From Planctomycetia bacterium (GTDB lineage: Bacteria; Planctomycetota; UBA8108; SXIK01): a stretch of 60,355 nucleotides of DNA. Below the pieces are notes generated by a model, which ran no database searches, was not told the origin of the DNA, and saw only the letters and a list, made by a program, of their open reading frames with translations. The DNA is taken from the NCBI GenBank assembly GCA_005772855.1, contig SXIK01000081.1:1-60355 (forward strand), written 5' to 3'. Every line of letters starts with the position of its first letter. Position 1 is the first letter of the stretch. Of the stretch, positions 904 through 60,355 are shown piece by piece. Both the position numbers and the translations under genes were made by a program.

Positions 904-3900
904 GGACGAGGCGCCTCCGTAGCTTCCATTCCTCGACCCAGCAGTAAACGCAAGGCACGATGAAAAGCGTAATGAGCTGGACCGCCATGCCTCCCACCGA
1001 CGGAATCGCCATCGGCTGCATGACGTCCGAGCCCCGGCCCTCGGTGAGGAAGACGGGCAGGAGACCGATCACTGTCGTTGCCGTCGTCATGAGGCAGGGG
1101 CGGATGCGCTTCATCCCCGCCTCCACGACCGTTTCACGCACCGCCTCGACGGTCGCGGGGGACCGCTCGTCGAAGAGCTGGCCGAGGTAGGTGGCCATCA
1201 CCACGCCGTCGTCCTCCGCCACGCCGAAGAGCGCGATGAATCCCACCCAGACCGCCACGCTCAAATTGGCGCCGTACCACAGCAGCATGAGGAAGCCGCC
1301 CGAGGCGGAAACGAGGATGCCGGAGAAGACGAGGAGCGCGACCCACCAGCGGCCGAAGCCCATGAAGAGCAGCACGAAGTCGAGGGCAAGGCACAGGGGG
1401 ACGAGCAGCGAGAGCCGCTTCGTGGCGCGCACCTGGCTCTCGAACTGCCCCGCCCACTTGTAGTAGTAGCCGTTCGGGATCTTGAGCTCGCCGCTCTGGA
1501 TATTCGCCTGGATCAACTGCTCGGCCTCCTCGACGACGCTCACCTCGTCGCGGTCGCGGGTGTTGAGGGTGACATAGCCGACGAGGAGCGCGTTCTCGCT
1601 CTTGATCTCCTGGGGGCCGATCGTGTAGCGAATGTTTGCCACCTGGGTGATTGGGATGTGCGGGCCGCTCGAGGCGGGGACGAGGATGCGCTCGAGATCC
1701 TCGAGGTTGTCGCGGAGCTCGCGCGGGTAGCGGACGCGCACGGGATAGCGCTCCCTGCCCTCCACCGTCGTCGTGAGGTTCTCGCCCCCCAGGGCGATCT
1801 CGATCACGTCCTGGACATCGCGGATGTTGACGCCGTACCGCGCAATCTTCTCGCGGTCGATCTCGAACTCGATGTATGGCTTGCCGGTGATCCGGTCGGC
1901 CACCACATCCGTGGCGCCGGGCACCTGCCGCAGGATCTGCTCGAGCGCAAGGCCGAGCTTCTCGATCTCGCGCAGGTCGGAACCGAAGACCTTGATGCCC
2001 ATCATGGCACGGAAGCCGCTTTGCAGCATGACGATCCGGGTCTGGATGGACTGGAGCCAGGTGGGGAGCACGCCGGGGATGTCGGTCCTCTGCCGCAAGT
2101 CGTCGAGCACTTCGCTCTTCGTCATGGGCCGCTCCTCCGGCCACCCCCAGCCGAAGGCGGCGTGCGTCCAGCGGGGCCAGCTCGAGTAGAACCGCTCGAC
2201 GGGGACAAGCCGCCACTGATCGGTCGGCTTGAGCAGGATCACCGTCTCGATCATGCTGATCGGCGCCGGGTCGAGCGCGGAGTCGGCACGCCCCAGCTTG
2301 CCGACGACGCTCTCCACCTCCGGCACGCTCCGGATGGCCATGTCCTGCTTCGAGATCACCTCCAGCGCCGCCGACAGCGAACCCGCCGGGGCAAGCGACG
2401 GCATGTAGAGGAGCGAGCCCTCGTCGAGGGGCGGCATGAACTCCCGCCCGAGCCCGGGAAACTGGTGCTTGAGGGCGCTCCAGGGGCGCCACTCGTTGAC
2501 GTTGACCCCGACCCTCGAGAGGCCCCATTCGACAGGGTACGCGAGCCTTCCCCAGCCGAGCCAGATCGTGATGCCGAGGAGGATCAAGGCGACCGGCAGC
2601 GACAGGAAGAGCCTCTTGTGCGCCAGGACCCAACGCAGGGCCGGGACGTAGACCCGCAAGATCCCTCGAGAGACCCGGTTTTCCTCGAGGGGCACCAGAC
2701 GCTCTCGACCCATCCGGTAGACGGCGAGACCCGCGACCACGCCCACGGCGAGCGCCAGGAAGACGCCTTGCCACCAGGCGCTCTGGGCGGGGAGGAAGAA
2801 GCTGCGGGAAGCCACGCCGGCGGTGGCCGCCGCGGCGATGCCGCAACCGAGGGCGACCAGGGAACTCCTCCGGCGGCTCCAGCTCGAGGGCTTGAGCAGG
2901 TAGTACGCGAGGACCGGGACCACGGTGACCGCGAGGACGGCCGAGGAGGTGATGGCGAAGGTCTTCGTGTAGGCGAGGGGCTTGAAGAGCTTCCCCTCCT
3001 GGTCCGCGAGCGCGAAGACGGGCAGGAAGGAGACGATGGTGTTCGACACGGCGGTGATGATGGCGGTCCCGACCTCGAAGGCTCCGTCCTTGACGCACTC
3101 GAAATGCGACTTCGAGCCATCGTTCTTGGCGATGTGCCGGTAGATGTTCTCCGTCATGATGATCCCCATGTCGGCGACGTCGCCGATGGCGATGGCGAGG
3201 CCCGCGAGGCTCATGATGTTCGAGTCGATGCCCAGCCAGTACATGACGAGGAAGCTCATGCCCACCGAGAGCGGCAAGGTCGGCACGATGGCGAGCGAGC
3301 TGCGGAAGTGGAGGAGGAAGAAGAGCACGACAAGGCCCGCGACGATCGCCTCCTCGATGAGCGCCTCGCGGAGCGTGTCCATGGTCTCGTGGACGATCTG
3401 GGTGCGATCGTAAAAGGAGACGATCCGCGGCCTGGAAGTCCTCCCATCGGGAAGCGTCTTCTCCGGCAGCCCGGGCGAGATCTCTGCAATCTTCTGCTTG
3501 ACGCGTTCGAGGACGCGCAGCGGATTCTCGCCGTAGCGCATGACGACGACGCCCCCCACCGCCTCGACGCCCTCCTTGTCCAGCGCTCCGCGCCGAAACT
3601 CGGGCCCCAGGCTGACCGTGGCCACGTTCTTGACGTAAAGCGGTGTGCCCTCCCTGGAGCGCACCACCACATTCTCGAGGTCCTTCACGGACTTCAGGAA
3701 GCCAACCCCGCGGATAAAAAACTCGACCTGATTCACCTCGATGACCTTGGCGCCGACATCGATGTTCGACTTGCGGACGGCTTCCGTGATCTCGGGCAGG
3801 GTGACTCCGTGAGCGCGCATCTTCACGGGATCCACGTCGACCTGGTACTGCTTGACGTGGCCGCCGACGGAGGCGACCTCGGAGACACCCTCCACGGCGT

Positions 3901-4408: not shown

Positions 4409-5950
4409 TCAGTTGTCCTTGTGGCCTTCATGACTCTCGTGCCCCTGGGGCTTCTCCCCGGGCGGCTTGACCCCACCATCCGGCGCTCCGTCGCCCTGGT
4501 GACCGGCGTGCCCGACGCCTCCTCCCGCGATGCCCTCCGGGTAAAACAGGCTCGGCTTGCCGCTGATCTGAAACTGCGAGTCGAGGAGGAAGCTCCCGCG
4601 CGTGACGACCCGCTGGTCCTTCTCGAGGCCCTCGATGACGGGGTAGTAGTCCCCTGCGCGCGGCCCCAGCCGGGGCTCCACGAGCCGGTACTTCCCGGGC
4701 TCGACCTCGACGTAGACGAGCGAGCGCCGCCCGGTCGTGAGCACGGCCTCCGCTGGCACGGCGAGCGTCCGCGGCGCCGCGGACCCAGCCGGCATGGGCT
4801 CTCCCGGCACCTTCTCGAGGGGCATCCCACAGACCGTGCACTTGCCGGCTTCATCCGCCACCACGTTGGGGTGCATGGGACAGGCATACTTGCCCTCGAG
4901 GCCCGTCGGCGCGGGCTTCCCGCCGGGAAGGATCCCGATGCGGAGGTGCGCTTGCGCGTACATGCCCGGCTTGAAGCGGCCCTCGTCGTTTCCGAGGACC
5001 ACGCGTACGCGGATCGTGCGGGTGGCATCGTTGAGGACAGGCTCGATGAAGGCCACAGTCCCGCCGAAGCTTCGCGCCGGCTCGCTCTCGAGCTTGACCT
5101 CCACGGACTGGCCAAAGCGCACCCAGGAGATCTCGGACTCGTAGACCTCCATGACGAGCCAGACATGGGCCAGCTCGGCGATGGTGTAAAGGGAGTCGCC
5201 GGGCTCCACGTACTGCCCCTCCCGGATGTCCTTCTCGATGACCGTGCCGCCCAGGGACGCGAAGACCGTGACGTGCGTCTGCGGCTTGCCCGTATGCACG
5301 AGCTCGTCGATCTGCTCGTCGGTGAGCCCCCAGAGCCGCAAGCGCTCCCGGGCGCTCGCCGCGAGGCCCTGATCGAGTCCGACCCCGGGAGCGGCGGCCG
5401 GCACCTTCTCCCGCCGCAGGCTGAGGAGCAGTTCCTGCTGCGTCGCGAGGAGGTCGGGGCTGTAGATGCGGACGAGGTGGTCCCCATCCTTGACGACGAT
5501 GCCGGGGAAGTTGGCATAAACTTCATCGACCCTGCCAGCGACGCGGGCGCTGATGTGGCGCACCCGCGTTTCGTCCAGCTCCACCTTGCCGACGGTCCGG
5601 ATCTCCTTGTGGATTTCGCGCTCCGCGACGGCCACGGTCGCGACCGTGGCCATGAGCCTCGCGTGGTCGCCGAGGGTCAGGTGCAGGGCCGAGTGGCCGG
5701 CAGCACCCGAGCCCGCGGAACCTTCCGCCGGCACGGGGACCAAGTCCATGCCGCAGAGGGGGCAGCTGCCCGGCCGGCCCATCCGGATCTGCGGGTGCAT
5801 CGAGCAGGTCCAGACCGAGCCCGCCGGCGCGGCAGCGCTGCCGGTGTCCGCTCCTCCCCACCCCAGGCCCATGTAAAGTACCCCCGCCACGGCAAGCCCC
5901 AGGACGATCCCGATGCCGAGGTGCATTAACGATTTCCGGTTCACGTGCAT
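4409..5950 (-). CDS. cusB: RND periplasmic adaptor with two heavy-metal-binding domains, CusB type
   Basis: Membrane-fusion protein linking the inner-membrane pump to the outer-membrane channel. The chosen start (ATG at 5950, protein MHVNRKS...) has an AAGGAG site upstream; an ATG 33 bases earlier lacks one. An N-terminal anchor helix is followed by a WTCSMHPQIR...CPLCGMDLVPV metal-binding domain. A second copy (YACPMHPNVV...CTVCGMPLEKV) lies in the C-terminal half. The two lipoyl/barrel-sandwich halves flank a helical hairpin (LATQQELLLSLRRE). It is 513 residues, longer than E. coli CusB because of the duplicated C-P-M-H-P/C-x-x-C-G-M modules, which are known to bind Cu/Ag-type ions. Ten bases separate it from the end of cusC, and nine from cusA. 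Confidence 0.92.
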   Translation of the reverse strand: MHVNRKSLMHLGIGIVLGLAVAGVLYMGLGWGGADTGSAAAPAGSVWTCSMHPQIRMGRPGSCPLCGMDLVPVPAEGSAGSGAAGHSALHLTLGDHARLMATVATVAVAEREIHKEIRTVGKVELDETRVRHISARVAGRVDEVYANFPGIVVKDGDHLVRIYSPDLLATQQELLLSLRREKVPAAAPGVGLDQGLAASARERLRLWGLTDEQIDELVHTGKPQTHVTVFASLGGTVIEKDIREGQYVEPGDSLYTIAELAHVWLVMEVYESEISWVRFGQSVEVKLESEPARSFGGTVAFIEPVLNDATRTIRVRVVLGNDEGRFKPGMYAQAHLRIGILPGGKPAPTGLEGKYACPMHPNVVADEAGKCTVCGMPLEKVPGEPMPAGSAAPRTLAVPAEAVLTTGRRSLVYVEVEPGKYRLVEPRLGPRAGDYYPVIEGLEKDQRVVTRGSFLLDSQFQISGKPSLFYPEGIAGGGVGHAGHQGDGAPDGGVKPPGEKPQGHESHEGHKDN

Positions 5951-5960
5951 GGACTCTCCT

Positions 5961-7319
5961 TCATGGCTTCGGCGCTTCCCCAATCGCCTTCTCGAGCTCC
6001 GCCTGGCTCGTGGCGTGCTCGACGAGAGCCCGCTCGCGCTCGAGCTGCTTCAGGAGGAGCATGCGCTGCGAGTCGAGGAGCTCGAGAAAGCCGAGCTTGC
6101 TTGCGGTGTAGGCCGCCTCGGCCACTCCCAGGTTCTGCTCGGCGCGAGGCACCGCCTCCTCGGCAAGGATCGTGAAACGCTCCGCCGCAGCAGCGAGGCG
6201 TGCGGACGTCGACTTCACCTCGTCCAGCACGCGGTTCCTGGCTGCCTTGAGCTCGGCGCTGGCACGGCGCGACTCCGCTTCCGCCTCGCGGCTCTTCGCG
6301 CGGATCGAGCCCCACCAGAGCGGCAGCGTGATCCCGGCAGTGACCTCGACCTCGTTCTCGTCCATGCCGAGGTCGCGGACGTAGGCGCCGCCGACGGTGA
6401 GGTCCGGGATCCACTCCTCTCGCGCCCGGGCGAGCATGGAGTCCGCTGAGGCCACTCGCTGTGAGGCCGCCTCCAGCTCGGGGCGGTACTGGAGGGCCCT
6501 GTCGTAAAGCTCGCCGGTCTGAGCGCCAGGCTGCGGCAGGGCCAACGGCGCGAGCGGACCGATGGGCGTCTCGGGAGGACGGTCGAGAAGGACATTGAGC
6601 GCGCTTGCCGCCGTTTCGACCTCTCGCGATAGCACCGCTCGCTCGGCGCGGATCGTCGAGCGCTCCAGCTCCGCCCGCAGCACATCGGACTGGGTCACGG
6701 TTCCGGCTTCGTACCGGGTCTGCGCAATGCGGACAAAGCGGTTGAGGATCTCGAGGTTGGCGTCGAGAAGCTCAAGCTCGCGACGTGCCAGATAGAGACT
6801 GGCGTAAGCCGCAGTGACTTGCTGCCGCAGGAGATTCCGACGCTCCTCGAATTCGGCACCCGTGGCCCGCGCCTCCGCGAGGGCGGCTCGGCCCTCGGCG
6901 AGGAGCTTCGAGGGGAACGGCACGTCCTGCATGAGCTCGACCGTGTTCATTCGGAACATGGACGAGTAACCCAAGCGGAGCGTGGGGTAGGGCGGCGCCA
7001 GACGCTGCGGCACCTTCTCGAGGAAGCCGACCCAGCGCTCGAGCGCGGCCGCGAGGTCGGGGTTTCGGCGCTCCGCGGCGGACAAAACCAGATACAGCGT
7101 GGGGTCATCCGCAAGCTTCCGGTGAAGCTCGGGGTCATCTGTCTCGGTGGACGTCTGCCGTTCGGCGCGCCTCGTGGATGCCGGCGCAGGCCTCTCTCCC
7201 GATCGAGCCCGTGCCACCGCTTGCCAGTCCTCCTTGAGCTCTGGCGCGAGACACCCCACAACCTGAAGGAACACTGGCACGAGCAAGGCGATCCTCAGAG
7301 TGGCACGTCCAGGAATCAT
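5961..7319 (-). CDS. cusC: Outer-membrane efflux lipoprotein, TolC/CusC family
   Basis: Outer-membrane channel of the RND system, 452 residues from the ATG at 7319. This start gives a short signal peptide ending in a VVGC lipobox (Cys about residue 23); an upstream in-frame start would add 50 residues of non-signal sequence. Two outer-membrane-efflux repeats are visible, each with long amphipathic helices, for example SDVLRAELERSTIRAERAVL and ARNRVLDEVKSTSARLAAAA. Helical content and length match TolC-like proteins. It is the first intact gene of the cusC-cusB-cusA operon. About 260 bp upstream, on the same strand, is a broken cysteine-rich lipoprotein. Confidence 0.9.
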   Translation of the reverse strand: MIPGRATLRIALLVPVFLQVVGCLAPELKEDWQAVARARSGERPAPASTRRAERQTSTETDDPELHRKLADDPTLYLVLSAAERRNPDLAAALERWVGFLEKVPQRLAPPYPTLRLGYSSMFRMNTVELMQDVPFPSKLLAEGRAALAEARATGAEFEERRNLLRQQVTAAYASLYLARRELELLDANLEILNRFVRIAQTRYEAGTVTQSDVLRAELERSTIRAERAVLSREVETAASALNVLLDRPPETPIGPLAPLALPQPGAQTGELYDRALQYRPELEAASQRVASADSMLARAREEWIPDLTVGGAYVRDLGMDENEVEVTAGITLPLWWGSIRAKSREAEAESRRASAELKAARNRVLDEVKSTSARLAAAAERFTILAEEAVPRAEQNLGVAEAAYTASKLGFLELLDSQRMLLLKQLERERALVEHATSQAELEKAIGEAPKP

Positions 7320-31317: not shown

Positions 31318-31375
31318 GGCTGAGGGCTATTTTCAGGTTGAAATCCGTCATCGCACGCCGGCAGGACGGCCAGAT

Positions 31376-31390
31376 TGACGCTTTGCGTCA
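31376..31390. promoter_or_regulatory. Inverted repeat just upstream of the kinase/sigma-54 gene
   Basis: TGACGC-TTT-GCGTCA, perfect 6-bp arms with a 3-base spacer, 20 bp before the ATG at 31411. It overlaps an alternative TTG start at 31375 and supports the ATG as start. It may be an operator, possibly for self-control by the HTH-bearing product (inference). Confidence 0.35.
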
Positions 31391-31410
31391 CACCGCGCAT
31401 ACTTGCAAGA

Positions 31411-34400
31411 ATGCGCCGGGAAAAGGGCTTTCAACATCCCCGATACGAAGTCTTGCGGCTCCTCGCCGAGGGAGGGATGGGGAAGGTCTTCCTTGCAAGG
31501 GACCTGCTCGAGGATGATCGTGAAGTCGCGCTCAAGGTCTATCCTGCCAGCTACTACCACGCTCGGCTCAAGGATGAGTTTCTCGCGCTGAAGAGCCTGT
31601 ATCACCCGGGAGTGGCCAGGGCCCTGCACTTTGGGGTCTCGGAGTCCGATGGCGCCCCATTCTTCACGCTCGAGTTCATCCGTGGGAACCCCCTCCACGC
31701 CTTCGTGGACACACTGCCAGGGGAGGCGCGGAGCCTCGCGACAGCCCAGCTCCTGCTCAAGACAACCCGGGCCGTGGCTTATCTCCACCGCCGTGGAGTG
31801 CTTCACCTCGACTTGAAGCCGGACAATATTCTCGTCGTCGGCTCCACTTCGGGCCTTCCACCTCGTCCCGTCCTGATTGACTTTGGCCTCGTCCGCCTTG
31901 TCGGCGAAGCCTGCGTCTCGCCCGGCCATGCGACCTTGCCGTATGCGCCTCCGGAGTCCTTCACGGGCGCCGCACCCACTCGGGCGAGCGATGTCTATTC
32001 GCTTGCGGCCGCGTTTTATCGGGTCTTCTCCGGCCGTTATCCCGTAGAGGGCAAGAGCCCGAAAGCGATGGCGGAAGCCCACAGGTCACGAGGCGCAGCA
32101 CCTCTGCCTGAAGTGCCCCAGCCCCTGGAACGGATTTTTCTGCGGGCCCTGGCGAAAGACCCCACGAAACGGTTTCACGACGCCGGAGAGCTGCTCAGGG
32201 CGCTCACCCAGCTCGATCGTGCCTCTCTCTTCGGGGCCGGTTCCGAGCCCGTGGAGGTGCTATTCCACGAGCCCGAGTTCGTTGGGAGGAAGCAGGAGCT
32301 TGTGGCCCTCGAATCGTGGCTCCACGACGGGCGCCTCTGTCATCCCGTCCTCGAGCTTCTCGGCGGGAGCGGCTTCGGCAAGTCGCGCTTCCTCGAGAAG
32401 GCACAAACAGTCCTCGAGATCGGCGGGCACAAGGTTCTCGCATTTCGATCCACCCTGGAGCCCGGCTACCCGATTCTCTCGCATCTGGAGCGAGCGGCGC
32501 AAGTTCTCCTGGGGCTGCCCACGCGAACAAGGTCGTGGCCCATGATGACGCTCGAAGCGGCGAAGCTGGCCTCGCGGCAAGTCCTCTCGCGAATTCTTCC
32601 GCTTCTCGGCGCGGGACTGTTCATCCTCGTCGACGACCTTCATCTCGCAACTTCGCTCGAGAAGGAGCTCCTCATCGACGCGGCGCGTGCGCTCGCAACT
32701 GCAGGAAAGGCCCGGGGTGGAATTCTGGTCTCCCGCGTGCATTCCCCCGTGGCGGATACCAAGCCCACGCCGCCCCTCAACTCGGAGGCTATCGCGAAAT
32801 GCGCTCCGCCGGCGCGAAAAGCGGGGACGGGCTTGCGGCCAGCCGTGGCCGGGACGGACTTCTGGGATGGGCGCCTCGAGGGGTTGGCCACGAGTCTTGT
32901 GCTGGAGCCGCTCACGGTCGAGGAGGCCCTGGAAATTGACCTCGAGGGCCTCAACAGCTCTCTCGCCAGCCTGTCGCCTGAGAGAATTCTCGCCCTGAAG
33001 CGTGGCCTCTTCGACGAGACGGGAGGCCACCCGCTATTCTTTGTACAGGGCCTCCTCGATCTCGCCGGCGGCTGCCCTGAGTCCGGCCGCTTCGCTCCGA
33101 CGGAGAGAGGGGCCTCGCAACTTCGAAAGCTGTCGCCACAGGAGCGCGACGTGGCAGCCACGCTTGGTCTGCTCGATCGCGAGGCCTCCAGCGGTGAACT
33201 CGCCGATCTCTCGGGGGTGGAGATCGCCGCCGTGCCCGCGGCGATCGAGCGCCTCAGGTGGCGTGGCCTGGTTGCGCCGCGTGGCGCCGGCTTCCGGATT
33301 ATTCACGAGTCGATCGTGGATGCCCTCACCTCCACGCTCGCCACCAGAGAAAAGACGAGCCTCCATTTGAGGATCGCGGAGAGGCTCGGACAGGCCGGCG
33401 CGCCGGGCGCGCAGCTCGAGGCTGCATGGCATTTTTTGGAGGCCACCGAGAGCCGGCGTGGGATCGACTGCGCACTCGAAAGTATCGAGCTCCTTGGCGC
33501 GGAAGGCGCCGCCCAGGGAGCTCGCGACTCAAGGACACTGCTTCGGGCCGGCGAGGCAGCGGGCGCTTCGACGTCGTCCGGCAAGGCCCTCCTGGAGGCG
33601 GCGAGCGATGCGCTGGAGAGCCAGGGTTTGTTCGCGCAATGCGTGCACGCCCGTAAGCGACTGGTGTCGAACCTGGGAGCCACCTCACGCCTCAAGGCAG
33701 GGGATGTGCGCCGATTGCGCAAGCTGGGCTCCGCTTGCCACAGAGCTGGCCTTGTCGACGAGGCCCTGGAACACCTGCAACTTTGCGTGACACCCGAGTC
33801 CGAGAAGGCGTCCCTCGTTGAGTCCTTGCGCGCACGAGCAGATCTTGCGCTCATTTCTCACTTCCGTGGCCAGACCGATGCGGCTCTCGCGCACGCGAAA
33901 CACGGCACGGATGCCTGGAGACACTCCACAAACGCCGAACGCCAAGCGACGGTCCAGAGCGCAGTCAACTTCCTTGTCCTCGAGGGGCAAGTACTTATCC
34001 GCAAACTCGAGCCCGAGGAAGCCATCACGGTCCTCGAAGAGGGTCTGAAGCTCGCTCGAAAGACCGATTCGAGGGCCAACACGGCGCTACTCCTGAATAA
34101 TCTCGCGCTCGCCCAACATCTCTTCGGAAAGCTCGGTCAAGCCCTCGCGACTTTCGAGAAAGCTGAAGCCATCGCGAAGGAGTTCTTTGATGCCGCTGCT
34201 CTCGTCAGCATTCGATCCAATGTCGTCCAGATTCTCGCCCGAAAGGGACGATTTCAGGCAGCAAGCGCCATCCTCGACCAGGTCGAGGAGTCGACAGCAG
34301 CCAACCAATCCAAACGCTTACGACTCTACTGTCTTTATACACGAGGCATCTTCCAGAGTTTGCTGGGCACCGACTCGAGCGACCTCTGGTCGAAAGTCGA

Positions 34401-36819
34401 GTCGCAGGCACTGGACACGAACGATACATTCCTCTCACGCTTCGCGCGCCTCTACCTCGCCGAAAGCCACATCTCGCAGGGGCGCTACTCGGACGCCAGG
34501 TCGACGCTCACGGAGAATGCTCGAGAGCCGGAGCTTTCTCCCGGCATCAGGGCCCCCACGTGGTCTCGCCTTGCCCTGGCGGAAGCCCTCCTTGGGAGGA
34601 CCGCGGCGGCACGAAAGGCTCGAAAGCGCCTCGATTCCGAACCAGAAGGGCCGCCCCTTCTGAGTGCCTGGAATCAGCTCCAGTGCGGAACCAGTGCCAT
34701 GGAGACGGCGGATTTTGAGGAAGCAGTGGGCCGCCTCCAGCGGTGCCGGGCAGTCCTGCGAGGTGCCGGTGCAACCGTCGGGGAGGTGGAGTGTGCACTC
34801 GTGCTGGCCGACCTCTGGATCCGGAGAGCCGCAGTCGCCTCGGATCCTGGACGATGGCTCGATCGCGCCGAAGCGGAGGTGGCGATCGCCCGCAAGCTGC
34901 CCCTCGAGTCACCCGGAGACGCCTCACCCCGACTCAGGGACCTCCGCTGCATGATCCTGGAAGCCAGAGTCGTGGTGGCCCGCTGGCACGAAAACTTCAT
35001 CTCCTCACTTCAGGGCCGAAAATCGCGCTCGACGGCCAGAAGCCGGGCGCAGACGGATGGAGAGCGGAGGCTGAGGGATCTGCTCGCCCGATCGAGTGGC
35101 GACCCCGCCCTGGCGTTTGCCCCGGACTTGCGTGCGATGCTCGAGTGCTTGCGGGCGGCAGCGGCGCGGCTCTGGGGCGATGCGGAAGGGACCCGAAGCG
35201 GGGCCAATCGGGTTCGGCGACTCACGGCAGAGAATTCCGTGGCGCTGAGCGCCGCCGACCGGACCGACTACGAGCGGCTGAGCCCATGGGCCCGTTTCGG
35301 CCTCAAGGCTTTCGAGCCCCTCGGGGGTGACCCGAGCCTCGAGCCCCGCCACGCTCGGGCTCTGGACCTGATCCTGCGCAGCCTGGAGAGATCGACAGGA
35401 GAGCGCACAGCTATTCTGGCGACCCTCGAGGAGATCCGTGCCACCCTTGGAGCCACGCACTTGGCCCTGGTTGCTGCAAGTGGAGTCCCCGTGGAATGGA
35501 TCCGCCCGGACGGCCTCGAGAAGGAGGCCGTGATCCCCGGCTCCGAATCGAGCCTCTGGGCGCCATGCCGGTTTCGGGGGCAGGAGAGAGGAGTCCTCTT
35601 CGCCGCTCGAGGAGCCGGAGTCCACTTCACCGCGAGCGACGCGGCCTTCCTCGAGGCCGCAGCACTTGCCCTCGCGCCAAGAATGACCGCGCCTCCTTCC
35701 ACGGCCGCGGCCGCCTCAAACTCCACCGATCCTTCCCGGGGAAAAAACTCCACCACCGAGGCACCCACGGCATCACTCGAGGGCACCGCGACCGTCTCAC
35801 ACACCCGCCGCGTGATCACGGACACTGCACTGAGGTCCGGGAGCATCGCCCGGGTGCTGAAGGAGGAAGGCTTCATCGCGAAGGGTCGGGAAACTCTGAA
35901 GACGCTGCGCGTCGCGGCAGCCGTGGCGGCAACCGACATGCCTGTCCTCATCACGGGCGACTCCGGAACGGGCAAGAGCACGCTCGCCCGCGCAATCCAC
36001 AAATTGAGCCGGCGTGCGCAGCACCCATTCCTGGTCCAGAGTGCCAGTGCAGTGCCGCCGGAGCTCTTCGAGGCAGATTTTTTCGGCTACGAGAGCGGCG
36101 CTTTCACCGGTGCGGAACGTACCCGCACGGGTTTCCTCTTCCAGGCAGAGGGGGGAACCTTTCACCTCGAAGAGATCGGCGACCTCGAGCCTGCATTGCA
36201 GCAGCGCTTCCTGCGCGTGATCGAGGAGCGCTCGGTTCGCCCCCTGGGAGCAACTCAGGCCAGGACGTTCGACGTACGCTTTCTTGTCTCGACCCAGCGG
36301 GATCTGGAAGCCATGGTGAGACGGGGCGAATTCCGAAAGGATCTCTACTACCGCTTGAACAGTGCTCACGTTCACCTGCCACCCCTGTCGGAACGGAGGG
36401 ACGAGATCGAGGACTTGATCAAGCATCACTGGCAAGTGCTGAGGGGTTCCAGGTCGCCATTTACGCAAACTGCCATGAGCCTCTTCCGCCAGCACGACTG
36501 GCCCGGGAACATTCGAGAGCTCGTGGGCGTCCTGAACAGACTCAGTCTTGAGACCCAGGGGGAGCTCACCACGGACGACGTGCGTGCGGTCCTTGGCTCG
36601 AGGTCGGAGCGCTCGCAATTTCCAGCATGCCTCTACGAATCGAAAGGGTACGACGAGCTCCTGCAACTCCTGGAAAAAGGTTACCTCGAGCACCTTCTGG
36701 TGAAGCACTCGGGAAACCTGGAAGCCATCGCCTCGGCCCTCGGAACAACGACTCGCAGCATCTACCGACGCTTTGAACGGCTCGGGCTCAAGCCCAGGGA
36801 CCTCCTGAGGGAGCCATGA
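31411..36819 (+). CDS. Ser/Thr kinase - NTPase - helical repeat - GAF-like - sigma-54 AAA+ - Fis HTH regulator
   Basis: 1802-residue cytoplasmic regulator. Domains in order: protein kinase (about 11-270) with Gly loop LAEGGMGKVFL, Lys42, catalytic HLDLKPDN (132-139) and DFG (157-159); an AAA_16-like NTPase with Walker A GGSGFGKS (318-325); a long TPR-like helical region (about 700-1250); a GAF-like segment (about 1340-1420); a sigma-54 AAA+ domain with Walker A GDSGTGKS (1516-1523), GAFTGA (1563-1568) and DLYYRLN; and a C-terminal Fis-type HTH (AIASALGTTTRSIYRRFERL). The intact GAFTGA loop argues it can contact sigma-54. Walker B reads FHLEEIG rather than FLDEIG. It presumably couples Ser/Thr phosphorylation to sigma-54 promoters. 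No ribosome site is evident at the ATG. Confidence 0.9.
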   Translation: MRREKGFQHPRYEVLRLLAEGGMGKVFLARDLLEDDREVALKVYPASYYHARLKDEFLALKSLYHPGVARALHFGVSESDGAPFFTLEFIRGNPLHAFVDTLPGEARSLATAQLLLKTTRAVAYLHRRGVLHLDLKPDNILVVGSTSGLPPRPVLIDFGLVRLVGEACVSPGHATLPYAPPESFTGAAPTRASDVYSLAAAFYRVFSGRYPVEGKSPKAMAEAHRSRGAAPLPEVPQPLERIFLRALAKDPTKRFHDAGELLRALTQLDRASLFGAGSEPVEVLFHEPEFVGRKQELVALESWLHDGRLCHPVLELLGGSGFGKSRFLEKAQTVLEIGGHKVLAFRSTLEPGYPILSHLERAAQVLLGLPTRTRSWPMMTLEAAKLASRQVLSRILPLLGAGLFILVDDLHLATSLEKELLIDAARALATAGKARGGILVSRVHSPVADTKPTPPLNSEAIAKCAPPARKAGTGLRPAVAGTDFWDGRLEGLATSLVLEPLTVEEALEIDLEGLNSSLASLSPERILALKRGLFDETGGHPLFFVQGLLDLAGGCPESGRFAPTERGASQLRKLSPQERDVAATLGLLDREASSGELADLSGVEIAAVPAAIERLRWRGLVAPRGAGFRIIHESIVDALTSTLATREKTSLHLRIAERLGQAGAPGAQLEAAWHFLEATESRRGIDCALESIELLGAEGAAQGARDSRTLLRAGEAAGASTSSGKALLEAASDALESQGLFAQCVHARKRLVSNLGATSRLKAGDVRRLRKLGSACHRAGLVDEALEHLQLCVTPESEKASLVESLRARADLALISHFRGQTDAALAHAKHGTDAWRHSTNAERQATVQSAVNFLVLEGQVLIRKLEPEEAITVLEEGLKLARKTDSRANTALLLNNLALAQHLFGKLGQALATFEKAEAIAKEFFDAAALVSIRSNVVQILARKGRFQAASAILDQVEESTAANQSKRLRLYCLYTRGIFQSLLGTDSSDLWSKVESQALDTNDTFLSRFARLYLAESHISQGRYSDARSTLTENAREPELSPGIRAPTWSRLALAEALLGRTAAARKARKRLDSEPEGPPLLSAWNQLQCGTSAMETADFEEAVGRLQRCRAVLRGAGATVGEVECALVLADLWIRRAAVASDPGRWLDRAEAEVAIARKLPLESPGDASPRLRDLRCMILEARVVVARWHENFISSLQGRKSRSTARSRAQTDGERRLRDLLARSSGDPALAFAPDLRAMLECLRAAAARLWGDAEGTRSGANRVRRLTAENSVALSAADRTDYERLSPWARFGLKAFEPLGGDPSLEPRHARALDLILRSLERSTGERTAILATLEEIRATLGATHLALVAASGVPVEWIRPDGLEKEAVIPGSESSLWAPCRFRGQERGVLFAARGAGVHFTASDAAFLEAAALALAPRMTAPPSTAAAASNSTDPSRGKNSTTEAPTASLEGTATVSHTRRVITDTALRSGSIARVLKEEGFIAKGRETLKTLRVAAAVAATDMPVLITGDSGTGKSTLARAIHKLSRRAQHPFLVQSASAVPPELFEADFFGYESGAFTGAERTRTGFLFQAEGGTFHLEEIGDLEPALQQRFLRVIEERSVRPLGATQARTFDVRFLVSTQRDLEAMVRRGEFRKDLYYRLNSAHVHLPPLSERRDEIEDLIKHHWQVLRGSRSPFTQTAMSLFRQHDWPGNIRELVGVLNRLSLETQGELTTDDVRAVLGSRSERSQFPACLYESKGYDELLQLLEKGYLEHLLVKHSGNLEAIASALGTTTRSIYRRFERLGLKPRDLLREP

Positions 36820-38265: not shown

Positions 38266-40408
38266 GCATGGAACGGGCGACCAAGGAATTTGAAATTCTC
38301 CTCGTCACGCCGGATCTCGCTCTCGGCCGGGCGCTCGGCGACGCGCTGCAATCGTTGGGTAAAAACTCAGCGATCCAACCTGCTGACCTTTTCAAACGAG
38401 AGCACCTCCTGGCCTCCCGGGTGGCCATCGTCGACGTGGACACGGCACGGATACGGGGACGCGAGACAGGATCCTGGAGAACGTCGGTCACGTGATCCTT
38501 GCGGGCGACCGCGGTGACCCGAACCAGTTGCTCGAGGCGCTGCGCTCGGGGGCCGCGGACTTCCTTCCCCGTGACTTCCGACCCGAAGAGCTCGAGAGCG
38601 CCCTCCTACTCGCGAGCCATCGCGCCGCGATCTCCACCGCAAGGCTCGACGTCGAGGAAAATCCGGGGGCCGTGCGGCAGGTTCCTCTTCACGGCAAGGA
38701 CTTCACGATCGGGAGAGATCCATCGAACAATCTTTACCTCGAGTCGGTGATCGTGTCGCGGTTTCACGCCAGGATCTCGCGGCAGGGCACGGGGCACTGG
38801 ATCATCGACTGCGCCAGCCGGCATGGAACGTTCGTGGACGACGTCAGGATCACCACGTGCCCCCTCAGGAACGGCATGCGCATCCGGCTCGGGACGCCCG
38901 GCGGGCCGACTCTGACTTTTCAATCGGGCGAAGAGGCCCCGACGGACGAGTCGCACCTGCGCTCGAGCCCGCCACAGGCGGAAGCCTCGGTCGACTCGAG
39001 CCAGGAGCTACGCGACATCGCCTCGCTGGTGGACACTTTCCTGAAGCTGAATGGCGATCTCCTCGTCGAGGATGTTCTTCAAATCGTGGTGGCCCGCTCC
39101 ATCGAGCTCGCCGATGCAGACCGCGGCATGATCCTCCTTCTCGAGCCGAGCGCCCGGAGCTCCGAGGACCCCACCGCGCACGATAGCGTTGGCTCTCCCG
39201 ACACCAAGCTCAATCCCGAGGCCAAGGACTTCGAGCTCCAACTTGCAATTGCGCGCCGCCGAGATGGCACGACCATCGAGCAAGAAGGCCTCACGATCTC
39301 GCGAAGAATTCCGCTAGAGGTCTTGAGGACCGGCTCCGGCGTGATCCTCGAGAATCTCCTGGCTAGCGAAAGCCGCGGCTATCATCCGACCACGATCGAG
39401 ATCGGAGTGCGTAGCGCGATGTGCGTACCCCTCAGGGTGCGCCGGAACCACGAAAGTCAGGGCGTCACGCCCATTCTCGGAGTTCTCTACGTCGATTCAA
39501 GCTCACGCAGGCGTCCCTTCTCGGCGCGTCTCCTTGAGGCGCTCGAGTCGCTCGCATCGGAAGCGGCGCAGGCGATCTACAACTCACAGCTCTATGAGGA
39601 GTGTCTCGTCAAGCGGGAATTCGACGCGGAGATGCGAATCGCACGCAGCATCCAGAAGGATCTCCTGCCGCCCAGCGGCTACCACAACTCCTGGTTGGAT
39701 CTCCATGGAACCTCCCGGCCAAGTCGAGAGGTTGGCGGCGATCTCCTCGACTACCATGCTCATGGAGAGGAACGCGTGCACGTCTTGATCGGCGACGTCA
39801 GCGGGAAGGGAATCCCCGCGGCAATGATGCTCGACGGGCTCTTCTACGGCATGGGGGCGCAGGTGGTGGCGGATCCCGACCTCGGCAGGGCCGCGAATGC
39901 GCTCAACCGCTACCTACTCTCCAAATCGAGCGACGAGAAGTTCGTCTCGGCCATTCTGGGCATCCTTTGGGCCGATGGGCGGTTCGCGTACGTGAACGCC
40001 GGACACAACCCGCCACTGTGCATCCGCGCCGGCGGCGAGGTCGAGGTTCTGCGCCCGCACGGGACGATCCTCGGCATGTTCGAGGAGTCGCGGTACTCGA
40101 CCGTGGAAATCCCCCTGGCGAAGGGAGACCTCCTCGTCCTTTACTCGGACGGCCTCACCGAGGCGCGAGCCAAATCAGGAGAGCGCTTCGGATTTCCAAG
40201 GCTCCAGCAAGCGGCCGTTGAGGCGAGCGCTCGATCGGCCAGGGAAGTCCACGACGCGGTGCTCTCGGCCGCCGCGCGTTTCACCGCCGGAGCGCCGCGG
40301 AGCGACGACACAACGATTCTGGTGGCAAAGATGCTTGTCGATGAGCTCAGGATCTCGAGCTCGAGCGCTCGAGACTCAAGACCACCGCGCCCTTACGGAA
40401 CATGGTGA
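38266..40408 (+). CDS. Receiver-like - FHA - GAF - PP2C/SpoIIE phosphatase (frameshift in receiver part)
   Basis: From the ATG at 38266 a receiver-like domain begins (FEILLVTPDLALGRALGDAL; IVDVD) but the frame closes at 38495. The continuation (RILENVGHVILAGDRG, ... GAADFLPRDFRPEELESALL) lies in another frame, so one indel at about 38440-38460 splits the domain. From GTG 38492 the frame is intact to 40408. FHA: FTIGRDPSNNL ... VSRFHARISR ... SRHGTFVDD, with phospho-Thr-binding Arg and Ser-x-x-His. GAF region: about 39020-39600. SpoIIE-type PP2C: VGGDLLDYH, IGDVSGKGIPAAMM, VNAGHNPPL, LYSDGLTEA and SDDTTILVAK, all metal-ligand Asp motifs present. It dephosphorylates Ser/Thr in family members. 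Its 3' end overlaps the cyclase gene on the other strand by 62 bp. Confidence 0.85.
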
Positions 40409-41714
40409 CCTCGCCGGTCGATTGCGAAAGCGCGATCGCTATCGCGCTGGTGGCATCCGTGATGGCGCAGGCGACCCGGTGCCGACTCCCATACCCGCCC
40501 GGAAGACTCACGTCCCGGCTCACGCGCAGGTAGGTGCCGGCCGAGACGACAACTCCGTCGCCCCGAACGACGAAGGCGCCGTCGATCGCCGCGAACTCCT
40601 TGATCGTCTCCTTCAAGGTCGGGTCGAGGACGTTGCGCTCCTCTTCCGGGTACCCCCGAAATGGGTTCATCACCATTTGCTGGCAGAAAGGCTGTAATTC
40701 GCCCGGATCTCCCACCACAAAGATGGTTCCCAGGGGCCTCCCCTCGCGGCCCTCCGTGGAGAGCTCTGTCGCGATGCCAATCACACGTTCGAGCACTCCG
40801 GGTAGCACGCCAGGCGAGACCTCGCCCGATGGGGTCACAAAACGCCCGAATTCGCGGCCAATCTCCAGGATCGTCATGGAGTCAAGGCCGCCGGAAAGAT
40901 CCCCGGAAAGGAAAGCGACGACGTCGCCTCGGTGGATCAGCCCGTTCGTGAGCGCCATGAGAGCCGTGAGTCGCAGCCGCGCCTCCCTTCGAAACGGCAT
41001 CTGCGGCAGGAGAATCACGCGGCCCACAAGCTTCTCCGCCTCCTCGTAAATCCGACGCGACCCCGTGGCGATGATGAAAGCCTTCCTGCCAGGAATATTC
41101 CTGAAAAGGGACAGGTCCTCGAACGTCTCGATCGAGATGATGATGGTGTTTACGCCAAGCTCGCGACCTATCTTGCGCGCCGTGCTCAGAAGAAGCTGCG
41201 AGAGCGGCCGGGCCTTCTTGCGAGGAGTGCCCTTTCCAGGAGAGTCCAGAAGGCGGTGAACGGCGTCCACGTCATGAGCCTCGAAGAGCTGCTCGCGAAG
41301 ATCCTCGCTCTTGACCGCACTGGCGATGGCCCCGAGGACTCCCACATGCTCCTCGGTCAGCTTCTCGTTGCCGACGACGAGAAAGACAATCCGGACCGGT
41401 TGGTCTGTCTCGACACCGTAGGGAAATCCAGCCGCGTTTCGGGCCAACGCGATCGAGATACCCTCAATGCACTGAACACGAGCGTGCGGAATCGCCACTC
41501 CCTCACCGACGTAAGTGTTCACGGCCGCTTCACGTTCGAGGGCGGCGGCGCAGATTTGATCGACCTGATCCTGATCGGCGCCTTCCAGCACAATTTCCGA
41601 GAGGCTGCGCAGCAACTCCTCCTTCGAGGCGAAGGACCTGTCAAGGATGGCCGTGGGCCGAAGGTATCGAGAAAGCTTCCCTTCGACGGTCGGCGCGCGC
41701 TCCCTGGGGGTCAT
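40347..41714 (-). CDS. PTS EIIA - pyruvate-kinase-C-like - diadenylate cyclase fusion
   Basis: 455 residues. The ATG at 41714 has GGAGG nine bases upstream. Residues ~15-155 form a PtsN-type EIIA-2 domain with phospho-His77 in GEGVAIPHARV. Residues ~165-325 resemble a pyruvate kinase C-terminal-like domain (FLSGDLSGGLDSMTILEIG). Residues ~330-450 are a DAC/DisA_N domain: DGA at 378-380 (IDGAFVVRGDG), RHR at 411-413 (GSRHRVACAITD), then ALSQSTGEVTMFRKG. Both catalytic motifs for c-di-AMP synthesis from two ATP are intact. Archaeal DacZ proteins are known to join a PK_C-like domain to DAC; an added EIIA could make output depend on PTS phosphorylation (inference). It converges with and overlaps the PP2C gene. 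Confidence 0.85.
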   Translation of the reverse strand: MTPRERAPTVEGKLSRYLRPTAILDRSFASKEELLRSLSEIVLEGADQDQVDQICAAALEREAAVNTYVGEGVAIPHARVQCIEGISIALARNAAGFPYGVETDQPVRIVFLVVGNEKLTEEHVGVLGAIASAVKSEDLREQLFEAHDVDAVHRLLDSPGKGTPRKKARPLSQLLLSTARKIGRELGVNTIIISIETFEDLSLFRNIPGRKAFIIATGSRRIYEEAEKLVGRVILLPQMPFRREARLRLTALMALTNGLIHRGDVVAFLSGDLSGGLDSMTILEIGREFGRFVTPSGEVSPGVLPGVLERVIGIATELSTEGREGRPLGTIFVVGDPGELQPFCQQMVMNPFRGYPEEERNVLDPTLKETIKEFAAIDGAFVVRGDGVVVSAGTYLRVSRDVSLPGGYGSRHRVACAITDATSAIAIALSQSTGEVTMFRKGAVVLSLERSSSRS

Positions 41715-41826
41715 ACGAAAGTGCCTCCACTCCGTCGGTCGGCCGACCCACTCACTTCTTTTCTCAAGTATCAGTGCTTTCCGCAAGAGACGCCGTCGTC
41801 GCTTGCATGAAGGCGCGCCTGTCGTG

Positions 41827-43534: not shown

Positions 43535-45301
43535 TCAACTCCCGCCGGCACTATTTTTCTCCAGCTTCTTGCCCGGTTCGAGCTTGCGCACCGAGCGGGA
43601 ATCTCGGGCCGCGTTGGCGTCCATGAGAACATTCAAGAGAAGGTTCTGAATCGACATCTCGTCCTCGGTTGAGTGTTGATGTCCAAAATGGCTCAGGACA
43701 ACAGTGACGACCCCCGGCAAGCCCTTCGGCACAGGACGGGTCCCTGGCGGAATGTTGACGGAGCCCGGCCGGAAGCAGAGAGCCACGGCGCCGTCTCCCC
43801 CCGCGTCCACCTGTAGCTTGCCGCTGGTCAGGAAGGCAACGACTCGAGACCTGTCAAGGATCTTGAGCGCAAAACTCTCATTGTCGATGCTCCACTGATG
43901 TTTAACTTTCGGTGGATCTTCCTCAACGGACGTTGGCTCCTCCGTCAAGGGCTTCCTCACCACCACCGTCTTGCCTCGTGGAGCATCCTCGGCCTTCACC
44001 TTCTTCGAATCCGACAGCTCTGGCGGCACATGGATCACCTTTGGCTCAAAGATGCCTCTCAAGTACGGATGCGAGGCTTGACCGCGGCCCGGTATTACGT
44101 CGACGGAACTCTTCTTGAGTTTGTCACCAGCCGAAACGAATTTCGGAAACGCCCGTTCGACGACCTCCTTTACCGTCCAGTCCTCGCAGAACAGAAAACC
44201 ACCGCCATTGACATAGCTCACGATCTTCTTGATGTCCTCGCCGGTGAGCTCTGCCTTGAACTTGATGTGCTTTTCACAACCGGTGCACCGGTAGAGTCGG
44301 TTATTCACGCCGCCGCCGGGCTTACACGTGGGGCAGATGCAAAACTCGTGGAACTGTGCGCAGTTAATCAGGAGAATGCCAGTGTCCTTCAGGTCAAAGG
44401 CCTGAAAATCCTCCCGCAGCACCACGGCGTGCGGAATATTCATACGGGCCAGGACCGCTTCAATGTGGTCGTTGTTGAGGTCCTTCGTGCTCTTCTTCGT
44501 ATACTTGGCGCTCAGCACGACCACCGCCTTCTCCGGCGCCTTCTCGACGCCAAGGAAGGCTTCGAGCCGGGCACGGTCGGGGTTCAGCTTCAGGAAATCG
44601 ACAGCAGTCTCCGTGCGAGCTCCACTGTTTTTCTCGACCACGCCGGGGAGTGGCTTGTCGCGGTTCTTCTTCCACCAGCCTTCCCAGTTGATCGCGGACG
44701 GCCCAAAACTCTGCCCCGTGGCCCTCGCTAACCCCTCGACGGCTATCCAACCAAGCTCGCCCAGCTTCTCTCCCTTCGCTTTTTCCTCACGTTTGAGGAG
44801 CTCGATCAGGACATCCACCGAGTCATGGCTCCGAATCATGCTCACTTTCTTCGCGACCGCGAGGCGGATCTCGTCGGTTCCTTCGAAAAGAAGCGGTTTG
44901 AACGAAAGAACAAAGAAAGGGGACGTATTCGTCGCGAGGCCGTGGAGGAGATCCCTTGCTACAAAGTTACCCTTCTTTGCAATGACGTACTTTCCCAGCT
45001 CCTCCATCGCAGGTCTGTCCCGAAACGAGACGGCTCCCACAAGGAGCGACCAGTAGAGCGAGTCCTCGGACGCCGGAATCTTCTCAAGGTGCTCAAGAAC
45101 AAGCTTCAAGCTAGCTGCCCCGCCCGAGCGCGCCAGGGCTTTCACGGAAACGTCGAGCTTCTGGACATCTCCCGCGAGAATGGCCTGACGAATAACCTTC
45201 CTCTCGTCTTCCTCCGCCTTGAGGCTCGAGAACGAATTGCCGACCATTGCAATCCACAGCCATGTAAGAGCCCCGGGTACGCATCGCCACGTTCTCGACA
45301 T
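43535..45301 (-). CDS. HEAT-repeat and DUF4159 domain protein
   Basis: 588 residues from the ATG at 45301, chosen because GAGGAG lies four bases upstream and a signal peptide follows (GALTWLWIAMVGNSFSSLKA). The N-terminal half has HEAT-like helical repeats (LKLVLEHLEKIPASEDSLYW; IRLAVAKKVSMIRSHDSVDV). The C-terminal half is DUF4159, a glutamine-amidotransferase/ThuA-like fold, with KDTGILLINCAQFHEFC, a zinc-ribbon-like insertion (CPTCKPGGG ... YRCTGCEKH) and YVNGGGFLFCEDWTVKEVVE. The C-x-x-C pairs inside the domain are noteworthy. DUF4159 proteins are typical of Planctomycetota and often accompany MoxR/CoxE gene sets, absent here. Function unknown. Confidence 0.82.
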   Translation of the reverse strand: MSRTWRCVPGALTWLWIAMVGNSFSSLKAEEDERKVIRQAILAGDVQKLDVSVKALARSGGAASLKLVLEHLEKIPASEDSLYWSLLVGAVSFRDRPAMEELGKYVIAKKGNFVARDLLHGLATNTSPFFVLSFKPLLFEGTDEIRLAVAKKVSMIRSHDSVDVLIELLKREEKAKGEKLGELGWIAVEGLARATGQSFGPSAINWEGWWKKNRDKPLPGVVEKNSGARTETAVDFLKLNPDRARLEAFLGVEKAPEKAVVVLSAKYTKKSTKDLNNDHIEAVLARMNIPHAVVLREDFQAFDLKDTGILLINCAQFHEFCICPTCKPGGGVNNRLYRCTGCEKHIKFKAELTGEDIKKIVSYVNGGGFLFCEDWTVKEVVERAFPKFVSAGDKLKKSSVDVIPGRGQASHPYLRGIFEPKVIHVPPELSDSKKVKAEDAPRGKTVVVRKPLTEEPTSVEEDPPKVKHQWSIDNESFALKILDRSRVVAFLTSGKLQVDAGGDGAVALCFRPGSVNIPPGTRPVPKGLPGVVTVVLSHFGHQHSTEDEMSIQNLLLNVLMDANAARDSRSVRKLEPGKKLEKNSAGGS

Positions 45302-45583
45302 AAAACTCCTCGGCCAGGGGGAAGGATCGGCAGAATCAGGGTGATGGTACCGGCGCGCAGCGGGGATGCAACGGCGCGACTCGGGCGGGGCACTCGGCCA
45401 CCGGGGGACCTGGGAAATTTGAGGAGTCCACCTGCCGCGGCAAGCGTGAGAGCCCTTCGTCTGGGAGAGCACAGGTCCCCGGGAAGACCCCGGAGGGCTC
45501 ATGGCAGTGTCGATTGCATCCAGTTGGACGCGGCGGAAGCCGCGACTTGGACGACCACGGCTACATTCTTGAGCCTCACGCCC

Positions 45584-58501: not shown

Positions 58502-59020
58502 GGTTTTCTCTCGGAACTGGTGCCAAACAATGGCCTCCTCCGGACAACCCGGAGAAGACATCAATAACGCCCACCCCCCGGCAAAAGAAGGCTATGGGAC
58601 ATCCACTGGAGCACGACAATTTACGCCAATCAGGAGGAAAAGAAAGCGGGGATCCTGGCAGCCAGAAAAACAAGGCCACGCGGCGGCGTCCTGAGTGCCG
58701 GCAGGTCGAAAACCAGGTGCGAAGGACGGCCCCGGTCTCGGGGGGGCCGAAGTGTCGTGGCAACTCGGCGGACGACCCGGCGCCGCTCGAATCCGAAGGG
58801 TCTGGCGCTGCCTTTGGGGATTTGTTGGGCGGGCTGACAGGGAGACATTACAGCCCCCTCCGGGGCACTTCGTCGGATACGCTATACTCCTTTCGCGGTG
58901 GAGGAAGACCTCCCCCGCACCGGCCGCCTGACTGCGTCTCTCGCCCTCCTCGGCGCTCGAGAAGCGCCGGGCGCCTTGATCAAGATGTTCCTGTCACGGC
59001 CGCGAGGAGTACAGTGTCCC
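58502..59020. other. Intergenic stretch with a possible promoter for the ThiF-like gene
   Basis: No gene recognised. TATACT at 58883-58888 is a good -10 box about 130 bp before the ThiF-like start, but no clear -35 precedes it. The start region could also extend to an in-frame ATG at 58985. Confidence 0.35.
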
Positions 59021-60046
59021 GTGAATCGCTACTCTCGCCAGATTCTCTTTACGCCATTGGGCCCGTCAGGGCAGGAGAGGTTGCGCGTCGCCCGGGCTCT
59101 CGTCGTCGGGTGCGGGGCCCTCGGCACTCACTCGGCCGAGCTACTCGCTCGGGCCGGCATCGGCTCGCTTCGCCTTGTTGACAGGGATGTTGTCGAGTGG
59201 TCGAATCTCCACCGGCAGGGTGGCTTCGAGGAGTCCCATGCCCGCGAAGGCATGCCGAAAGCGCAGGCACTCGCGGGTTGGTTACGCCGTATCAACTCCG
59301 AGGTCGAGGTCGACGCGCGCGTCACCGATTTCAACTTCACCAATGCGCTAGAGCTCGCGGATGGTGCCACGGTGATCATCGACGGCACGGACAATCTGCC
59401 GACGCGATTTCTCCTGAACGACGTCAGCTATCGTCTCGCCATCCCCTGGGTTTACGCCGGCGCCGTGGGCTCGTCGGCTCACGTGCAGCTCTTCTCGGGC
59501 AGCCGGGGCCCGTGTCTGAGGTGCCAGCTCCCGACCTTGCCGCCTCCGGGCACAATCGCCACCTGCGACACCTCCGGAGTGATCGGTCCGACGGCCGCTC
59601 TGGCCGCGGCGTGGCAAGCAGCGAGCGCGCTCCGCGCGGTCTCGGCCGACGGGATCGCGGCTCTAGCGGGCAAGAAGGCAATGCTCGATCCCTGGGCGGC
59701 CTCTGCCCGGGTGGTGGATACGGAAGCCGACCCCGAATGCCCTGCCTGCGCCAAGGGCCGCTTCGAGGCACTCGAGGGAGCCCACGGCGAGCGCGCCACG
59801 CTCCTCTGTGGGCGCGCAGCAGTCCAGGTCCTTCCGGCGGGGCCGAGCACCGGCGGGTTCAACTGGGAGGAGGCCATGTCTAGGATCGCGCACCTGGGCC
59901 CGATCGAGATGTTGGGACGTGTCCTGAGGGTCCACTCGAAAGACGGCTTCACTCTCACACTTTTTGACGATGGAAGAGCCATCTTCGACGGGTTGACGGA
60001 CCCGGTGCAAGCTCGTACGCTGTACGCTCGTTTTATTGGGCAGTAA
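59021..60046 (+). CDS. ThiF/MoeB-like E1 adenylyltransferase
   Basis: 341 residues from GTG 59021 (protein begins V/M-NRYSRQIL, the usual MoeB/ThiF start, with GAGGAG about 12 bases upstream); ATG 58985 is the alternative. ATP-binding GCGALGTHSAELLARAGIG, LVDRDVVEWSNLHRQGGF (Asp and Arg of the adenylation site), VIIDGTDNLPTRFLLNDV and WVYAGAVGSSAHVQLF are family hallmarks. Two C-x-x-C pairs (CLRC, CPAC) form the zinc site. The C-terminal ~70 residues lack a rhodanese domain and read as a small beta-rich domain similar in size to a ThiS-like module (RVLRVHSKDGFTLTLFDDGR). It likely activates a sulfur-carrier protein C-terminus for thiamine, molybdopterin or a related pathway. Confidence 0.88.
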   Translation: MNRYSRQILFTPLGPSGQERLRVARALVVGCGALGTHSAELLARAGIGSLRLVDRDVVEWSNLHRQGGFEESHAREGMPKAQALAGWLRRINSEVEVDARVTDFNFTNALELADGATVIIDGTDNLPTRFLLNDVSYRLAIPWVYAGAVGSSAHVQLFSGSRGPCLRCQLPTLPPPGTIATCDTSGVIGPTAALAAAWQAASALRAVSADGIAALAGKKAMLDPWAASARVVDTEADPECPACAKGRFEALEGAHGERATLLCGRAAVQVLPAGPSTGGFNWEEAMSRIAHLGPIEMLGRVLRVHSKDGFTLTLFDDGRAIFDGLTDPVQARTLYARFIGQ

Positions 60047-60083
60047 GTTCCCTCCACGCCGAAGCCCCGAAGCCAAGGACCTG

Positions 60084-60355
60084 ATGAAATCCCTTTCCCG
60101 ACTCCTCACGCTGGACCGAATTCAGTGGCTAGACCAAGGAACAAAGAACGAGTGCTTGCACACGATGGTGGATTGCCTCGCGAGGTCAACCGCACTCGAA
60201 CGGCCCGAAGAAGTCTACGAGGCAATTCTGGAGCGTGAAAAGCTCCTCTCGACAGGATTCGGACTGGGGCTCGCGATTCCGCACGCCAAACTCAAATCTA
60301 TCAACGACTTCGTGGTCGGCCTGGGGATCCACAAGAAAGGCGTCGGCTTCGACTC
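60084..60355 (+). CDS. PTS EIIA type-2 domain protein (PtsN-like), partial
   Basis: N-terminal 90 residues of a second EIIA-2 protein, cut by the window end. The ATG at 60084 has an AAGGA site five bases upstream. The phospho-accepting His67 is in GFGLGLAIPHAKL. It follows the ThiF-like gene by 37 bp on the same strand. Whether it is a stand-alone PtsN-like regulator or a fusion like the EIIA-cyclase at 40.3-41.7 kb cannot be seen. Confidence 0.85.
   Translation, partial: MKSLSRLLTLDRIQWLDQGTKNECLHTMVDCLARSTALERPEEVYEAILEREKLLSTGFGLGLAIPHAKLKSINDFVVGLGIHKKGVGFD

Follow-up and report, generated by a model that had tools for sequence, protein, structure and literature searches.

A PTS EIIA domain fused to a predicted DacZ-type diadenylate cyclase in Planctomycetota

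For most diadenylate cyclases the controlling signal is, to our knowledge, not known, and a gene of a Planctomycetia bacterium raises the question of whether one of them could be the phosphorylation state of the phosphotransferase system (PTS), delivered within a single polypeptide. The gene lies in a window of 60,355 nucleotides (the whole stretch of DNA that was analysed, contig SXIK01000081.1) and joins a PTS EIIA domain, a pyruvate-kinase-C-like (PK_C-like) sensor domain and a diadenylate cyclase (DAC) domain. The product is probably a diadenylate cyclase of three modules, the activity of which would be set by the PTS phosphorelay through a predicted phosphohistidine, His77.

The initial annotation had placed one intact protein of 455 residues here and left the strand unstated. 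The frame was found at that location, uninterrupted on the minus strand, and stops interrupt the plus strand over the same interval; its intactness is confirmed by the open frame and by the occurrence of the same domains in 22 further genomes. The gene begins with ATG, and its 3' end overlaps by 62 bp a convergent gene encoding an FHA-GAF-SpoIIE protein (38492..40408, plus strand).

Table 1. Features of the fusion gene, in window coordinates
Feature	Position	Strand	Evidence
EIIA - DacZ_P (PK_C-like) - DAC fusion gene, 455 aa	40347..41714	-	Open frame; Pfam; AlphaFold2 model, pLDDT 89.7
GGAGG, ribosome-binding-site-like	41724..41728	-	Sequence; 9 nt before the ATG of the fusion gene
PTS_EIIA_2 domain, residues 23-157	41244..41648	-	Pfam PF00359, 1.5e-21; Foldseek EIIA-Ntr 3urr, TM 0.85 on target
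His77 codon, predicted phospho-acceptor	41484..41486	-	GVAIPHAR motif; H in 23/23 fusions
DacZ_P / PK_C-like sensor domain, residues 173-292	40839..41198	-	Pfam PF21755, 2.8e-10; Foldseek pyruvate kinase 3t05, partial match
DAC (DisA_N) domain, residues 319-443	40386..40760	-	Pfam PF02457, 2.1e-18; aligned to CdaA structures

All three domains of the window protein score above the curated Pfam cut-offs (PTS_EIIA_2, 77.3 bits against 27; DacZ_P, 40.4 against 27.4; DAC, 66.5 against 27). The initial annotation, which had named an EIIA-2 domain with His77, a pyruvate-kinase-C-like region and a DAC domain with DGA and RHR motifs, and had expected PTS_EIIA_2 and DisA_N matches from a profile search, is borne out on each of these points. 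By homology, His77 is the predicted phospho-acceptor of the EIIA domain. The DacZ_P domain sits directly before the DAC domain, the motifs of which (DGA at 378-380, GSRHR at 409-413) align with the CdaA motif; a weak match to PK_C itself was obtained in a homologue (L009). The NCBIfam DacZ model covers residues 243-449 at 5.3e-32, and the score against the haloarchaeal-type DacZ equivalog NF041371 was 111.2 bits against a cut-off of 430, so that the protein is not filed as that equivalog. The AlphaFold2 model, also suggested at the outset, was confident (pTM 0.67, mean pLDDT as in Table 1) when built from an alignment of 40 sequences of the window protein and its relatives; a single-sequence model reached pLDDT 35 only. 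In Foldseek comparison with the PDB, the N-terminal part of the model matched EIIA-Ntr and the C-terminal part matched CdaA, CdaM and DisA, and a search of a viral fold library gave nothing significant.

Of 392 planctomycete genomes searched, 72 hold a DacZ_P domain (E <= 0.001). Those DacZ_P frames with room for a third domain were read and yielded 23 EIIA-DacZ_P-DAC fusions, the window protein included, which span seven family-level groups (f1, f2, f3, f27, f29, f37 and f92, with f3 in the window's own order). Eight of the 22 other fusions were rescanned with Pfam: seven were above cut-off in all three domains, and the eighth (L085) in EIIA and DAC, with DacZ_P slightly below. With copies in 22 other planctomycete genomes, the three-domain protein lies far above chance expectation and is not an assembly join. 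The remaining DacZ_P matches, part of which were read, are mostly in frames of about 250-400 residues, which leaves no room for a fusion of 455 residues; proteins made of DacZ_P and DAC alone occur commonly in the phylum. In one genome (G276) a stand-alone DacZ_P protein occurs alongside an EIIA fusion (loci L107 and G276:C35), so the two forms can coexist as paralogues. In a contig scan of a genome collection for the fusion, the nearest relative alone matched, and every DacZ or EIIA gene among the plasmid matches listed was unfused.

In a tree of the DacZ and DAC domains, all fusions fall on one side of a branch with 100/100 support that separates them from the stand-alone type of cultured planctomycetes. 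Five proteins lacking EIIA form one clade nested among the fusions (four of the five rows are long-branched), indicating that the EIIA domain is dispensable there. Two changes suffice to explain the fusion label on this tree, against 17.8 for shuffled labels. One ancient fusion followed by one later loss of EIIA would be the simplest history to draw from these sequences; support in the tree of the EIIA domain alone is too weak to decide between one and two origins. One genome of the EIIA-less clade (L102, G033) has a separate EIIA gene (1208-1801, minus strand) about 3.3 kb from its stand-alone DacZ gene (5058-6053, plus strand), an arrangement possibly due to a split of the fusion or to chance.

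EIIA identity to the window copy drops as low as 21% among the 23 fusions, and of the EIIA positions that were compared the only invariant ones are R61, A74, P76, H77 and V107. Arg61 we take, from established knowledge of EIIA-Mtl and PtsN, to be an active-site residue. The second active-site histidine, H123, is kept in 12 of the 23 and replaced by tyrosine in the other 11, all of them from f27, where the phosphotransfer chemistry may therefore differ. In the DAC domain D378, G379, A380, G409, R411 and H412 are invariant in 23/23, and the x positions of the G-x-RH-x motif vary. Selection has thus preserved the two active sites amid divergence of much of the protein.

The genome encodes a complete supply of phosphoryl donors, in keeping with the initial proposal of a link to PTS phosphorylation state. 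Genes for PtsN, CofD, HPr and EI lie together in one cluster (L091, with the stand-alone PtsN at L091:7760-8236), and a GAF-EI (PtsP-like) gene lies outside it (L093); the phospho-His motif TSH is kept in EI and PtsP, and GLHAR in HPr. The PTS_EIIC permease family was searched for in this genome with good controls and not found, and the relay therefore looks like a regulatory one of the PTS-Ntr kind, as described for Planctomycetales (PMC13104625). EI was present in 60 of 60 genomes probed, nearly all of them DacZ_P carriers; since almost every genome in the groups searched has EI and HPr, finding them is not discriminating. A search for HPr kinase, a weak one in which the control missed Bacillus subtilis, gave none. 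Another EIIA_2 domain (60066-60353, plus strand; 1.6e-15; motif GLAIPHAK) is cut by the end of the contig and is immediately preceded by a ThiF-family gene (58898-60046).

On the side of the messenger, the genome separately encodes a second cyclase, CdaA, in a gene adjoining folP and ftsH, together with a 7TM-7TMR_HD protein of the PgpH type and six TrkA_C/RCK_C matches; from these families we infer c-di-AMP roles for the PgpH-type protein and the RCK_C proteins. No c-di-AMP riboswitch (RF00379) was found in this genome. A CNNM-CBS-CorC gene lies about 5 kb from cdaA on the same contig (L092:9051-10400), and in another genome (L110, G148) such a gene (5049-6311, minus strand) is directly downstream of the fusion on the same strand; c-di-AMP receptors occur among CBS domains.

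The neighbourhoods of the fusion differ between lineages and offer no hint of function: within the window's own order the neighbours encode a xylose-isomerase-like TIM barrel protein and the FHA-GAF-SpoIIE phosphatase, in f27 a methionyl-tRNA formyltransferase-like protein (judged by reading the sequence), and in f29 an enolase-superfamily protein. PTS or K+ genes were found in none of the neighbourhoods read. Elsewhere in the window, a 655-residue protein (43535-45502, minus strand) has no Pfam match at 0.001 and has a similar gene near another fusion (L099; cluster c21). An 1814-residue frame (31375-36819, plus strand) combines a eukaryote-like protein kinase domain at its N-terminus, TPR repeats, and at its C-terminus a sigma-54 activator AAA+ domain with a tail that by eye is helix-turn-helix-like, and reads as a putative kinase-to-sigma-54 regulator in one protein.

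We infer that the fusion is phosphorylated, that it is an active cyclase and that the first property governs the second, in the following way. EI, or the GAF-domain EI (PtsP-like), would receive phosphate from PEP, and HPr would hand it on to His77 in EIIA, the domain at the N-terminus. The state of His77 would alter the packing or the oligomeric form of EIIA together with the PK_C-like domain; domains that precede a DAC domain are able to permit or prevent its pairing. DAC domains pair face to face with one ATP each, and the aspartate of DGA contacts the ATP on the partner side (Rosenberg et al., as cited in PMC6741144); altered packing could thus open or close the dimer and change the rate at which two ATP become c-di-AMP. 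Given that no permease of the PTS_EIIC family was found, the relay would report PEP or carbon-nitrogen state. The c-di-AMP produced would act on K+ and osmotic targets such as the RCK_C-domain proteins, and the PgpH-like protein would remove it. In proteobacteria PTS-Ntr acts on K+ transport via PtsN, the active form of which varies between species (PMC13104625), and c-di-AMP acts on osmohomeostasis (PMC6741144), so that a device fusing both makes physiological sense.

Other readings of the same protein were weighed. The EIIA domain might instead regulate other proteins (K+ transporters, kinases) as PtsN does, the fusion co-localising two K+/osmotic outputs and the DAC domain answering to a metabolite bound by the PK_C-like domain, independently of His77 phosphorylation. 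PtsN does work through contacts with other proteins, namely TrkA, KdpD and YcgO (PMC13104625), the PK_C fold of pyruvate kinase binds fructose-1,6-bisphosphate (PMC6741144), and relatives without EIIA exist; however, the genome already has a stand-alone PtsN, a fixed and retained fusion is more simply explained as control in cis, and the neighbourhoods read hold no K+ genes, which together make this reading unlikely. Control could also run in reverse, with the DAC and PK_C-like domains sensing c-di-AMP or ATP and altering the acceptance of phosphate by EIIA, thereby draining or sparing the PTS relay. With both active sites intact the coupling could be reciprocal, and this genome has several EIIAs competing for HPr-P, but the N-terminal domains of DAC proteins are generally taken as regulators of the cyclase and we know of no precedent for control of such a domain by the cyclase; we consider this direction quite improbable.

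That EIIA serves purely for folding, dimerisation or ligand binding, without phosphorylation, would agree with the tyrosine at H123 in f27, but the invariance of H77 and R61 in 23/23 fusions at identities down to 21% is unexpected for a pure scaffold and makes this reading very unlikely. The source genome is a draft of 244 contigs, and a chimeric assembly or fortuitous open frame might be suspected; an assembly chimera is ruled out by the 22 independent copies, some on contigs of several megabases, and the three above-threshold domains and the confident model likewise leave next to no probability for an artefact. Phosphorelay control of the cyclase through His77 is the preferred reading. Counting against it are the tyrosine at H123 in 11 fusions, the near ubiquity of EI and HPr, the lack of a shared neighbourhood and the nested clade without EIIA. 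The wider proposition is that c-di-AMP synthesis is gated directly by a PTS phosphohistidine domain, which would couple the PEP phosphorelay to a K+/osmotic messenger in one polypeptide that has persisted in Planctomycetota since a single ancient fusion; on this we regard the case for and against as evenly balanced.

If the preferred reading is true, the input to this DAC domain is a defined covalent mark, phospho-His77, made by a relay that could be rebuilt in a tube, and is therefore directly testable. The regulation of K+ by PTS-Ntr (via PtsN) in proteobacteria and the link of c-di-AMP to osmotic and K+ homeostasis in other bacteria and in archaea could, as the fusion suggests, belong to one pathway, and c-di-AMP levels may be under the direct control of nutrient state in those planctomycetes that carry the fusion.

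A full-text literature search turned up no account of an EIIA-DAC protein, in agreement with the initial annotation, which knew of no characterised fusion of this kind; a survey of DAC architectures, reportedly that of Galperin 2023 (J Bacteriol), lies outside that search and may list one. The Pfam DacZ_P family is said to stem from the same survey, and the existence of the family shows that planctomycete DacZ sensors have already been curated by somebody. The initial interpretation is supported in part, for the domains, the motifs and the genomic supply of EI and HPr. The DacZ-type proteins with a PK_C-like domain that it mentioned for archaea are indeed known there but are not confined to them: Braun et al. 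2019 (PMC6741144) had already pointed out homologues in planctomycetes, a phylum in which stand-alone forms are common. Judged by the species assigned to DacD and DacE (PMC6741144), the fusion belongs to neither class.

Compared with known systems, the fusion shares with DacZ/DacY (CdaZ), as in DacZ of Haloferax volcanii and CdaZ of Methanocaldococcus jannaschii, a PK_C-like sensor ahead of a DAC domain that forms the C-terminus and bears DGA and RH motifs, and the planctomycete homologues of Braun et al. 2019 (PMC6741144) have the same layout; it differs by about 150 additional residues at the N-terminus, a PTS EIIA domain in which the phospho-acceptor histidine never varies. The DAC catalytic domain is common to the fusion and CdaA (DacA), but CdaA is a membrane protein without EIIA or PK_C domains. 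With PtsN (EIIA-Ntr) the fusion shares the EIIA_2 fold (3urr) and the active histidine, and its genome likewise has a GAF-EI and HPr and no PTS_EIIC that could be found; whereas PtsN stands alone and acts by contact, the EIIA domain of the fusion is joined to the synthase of a second messenger. DacZ with its PK_C-like domain and its planctomycete homologues were known; what is new is a predicted covalent input to a cyclase of the DacZ type.
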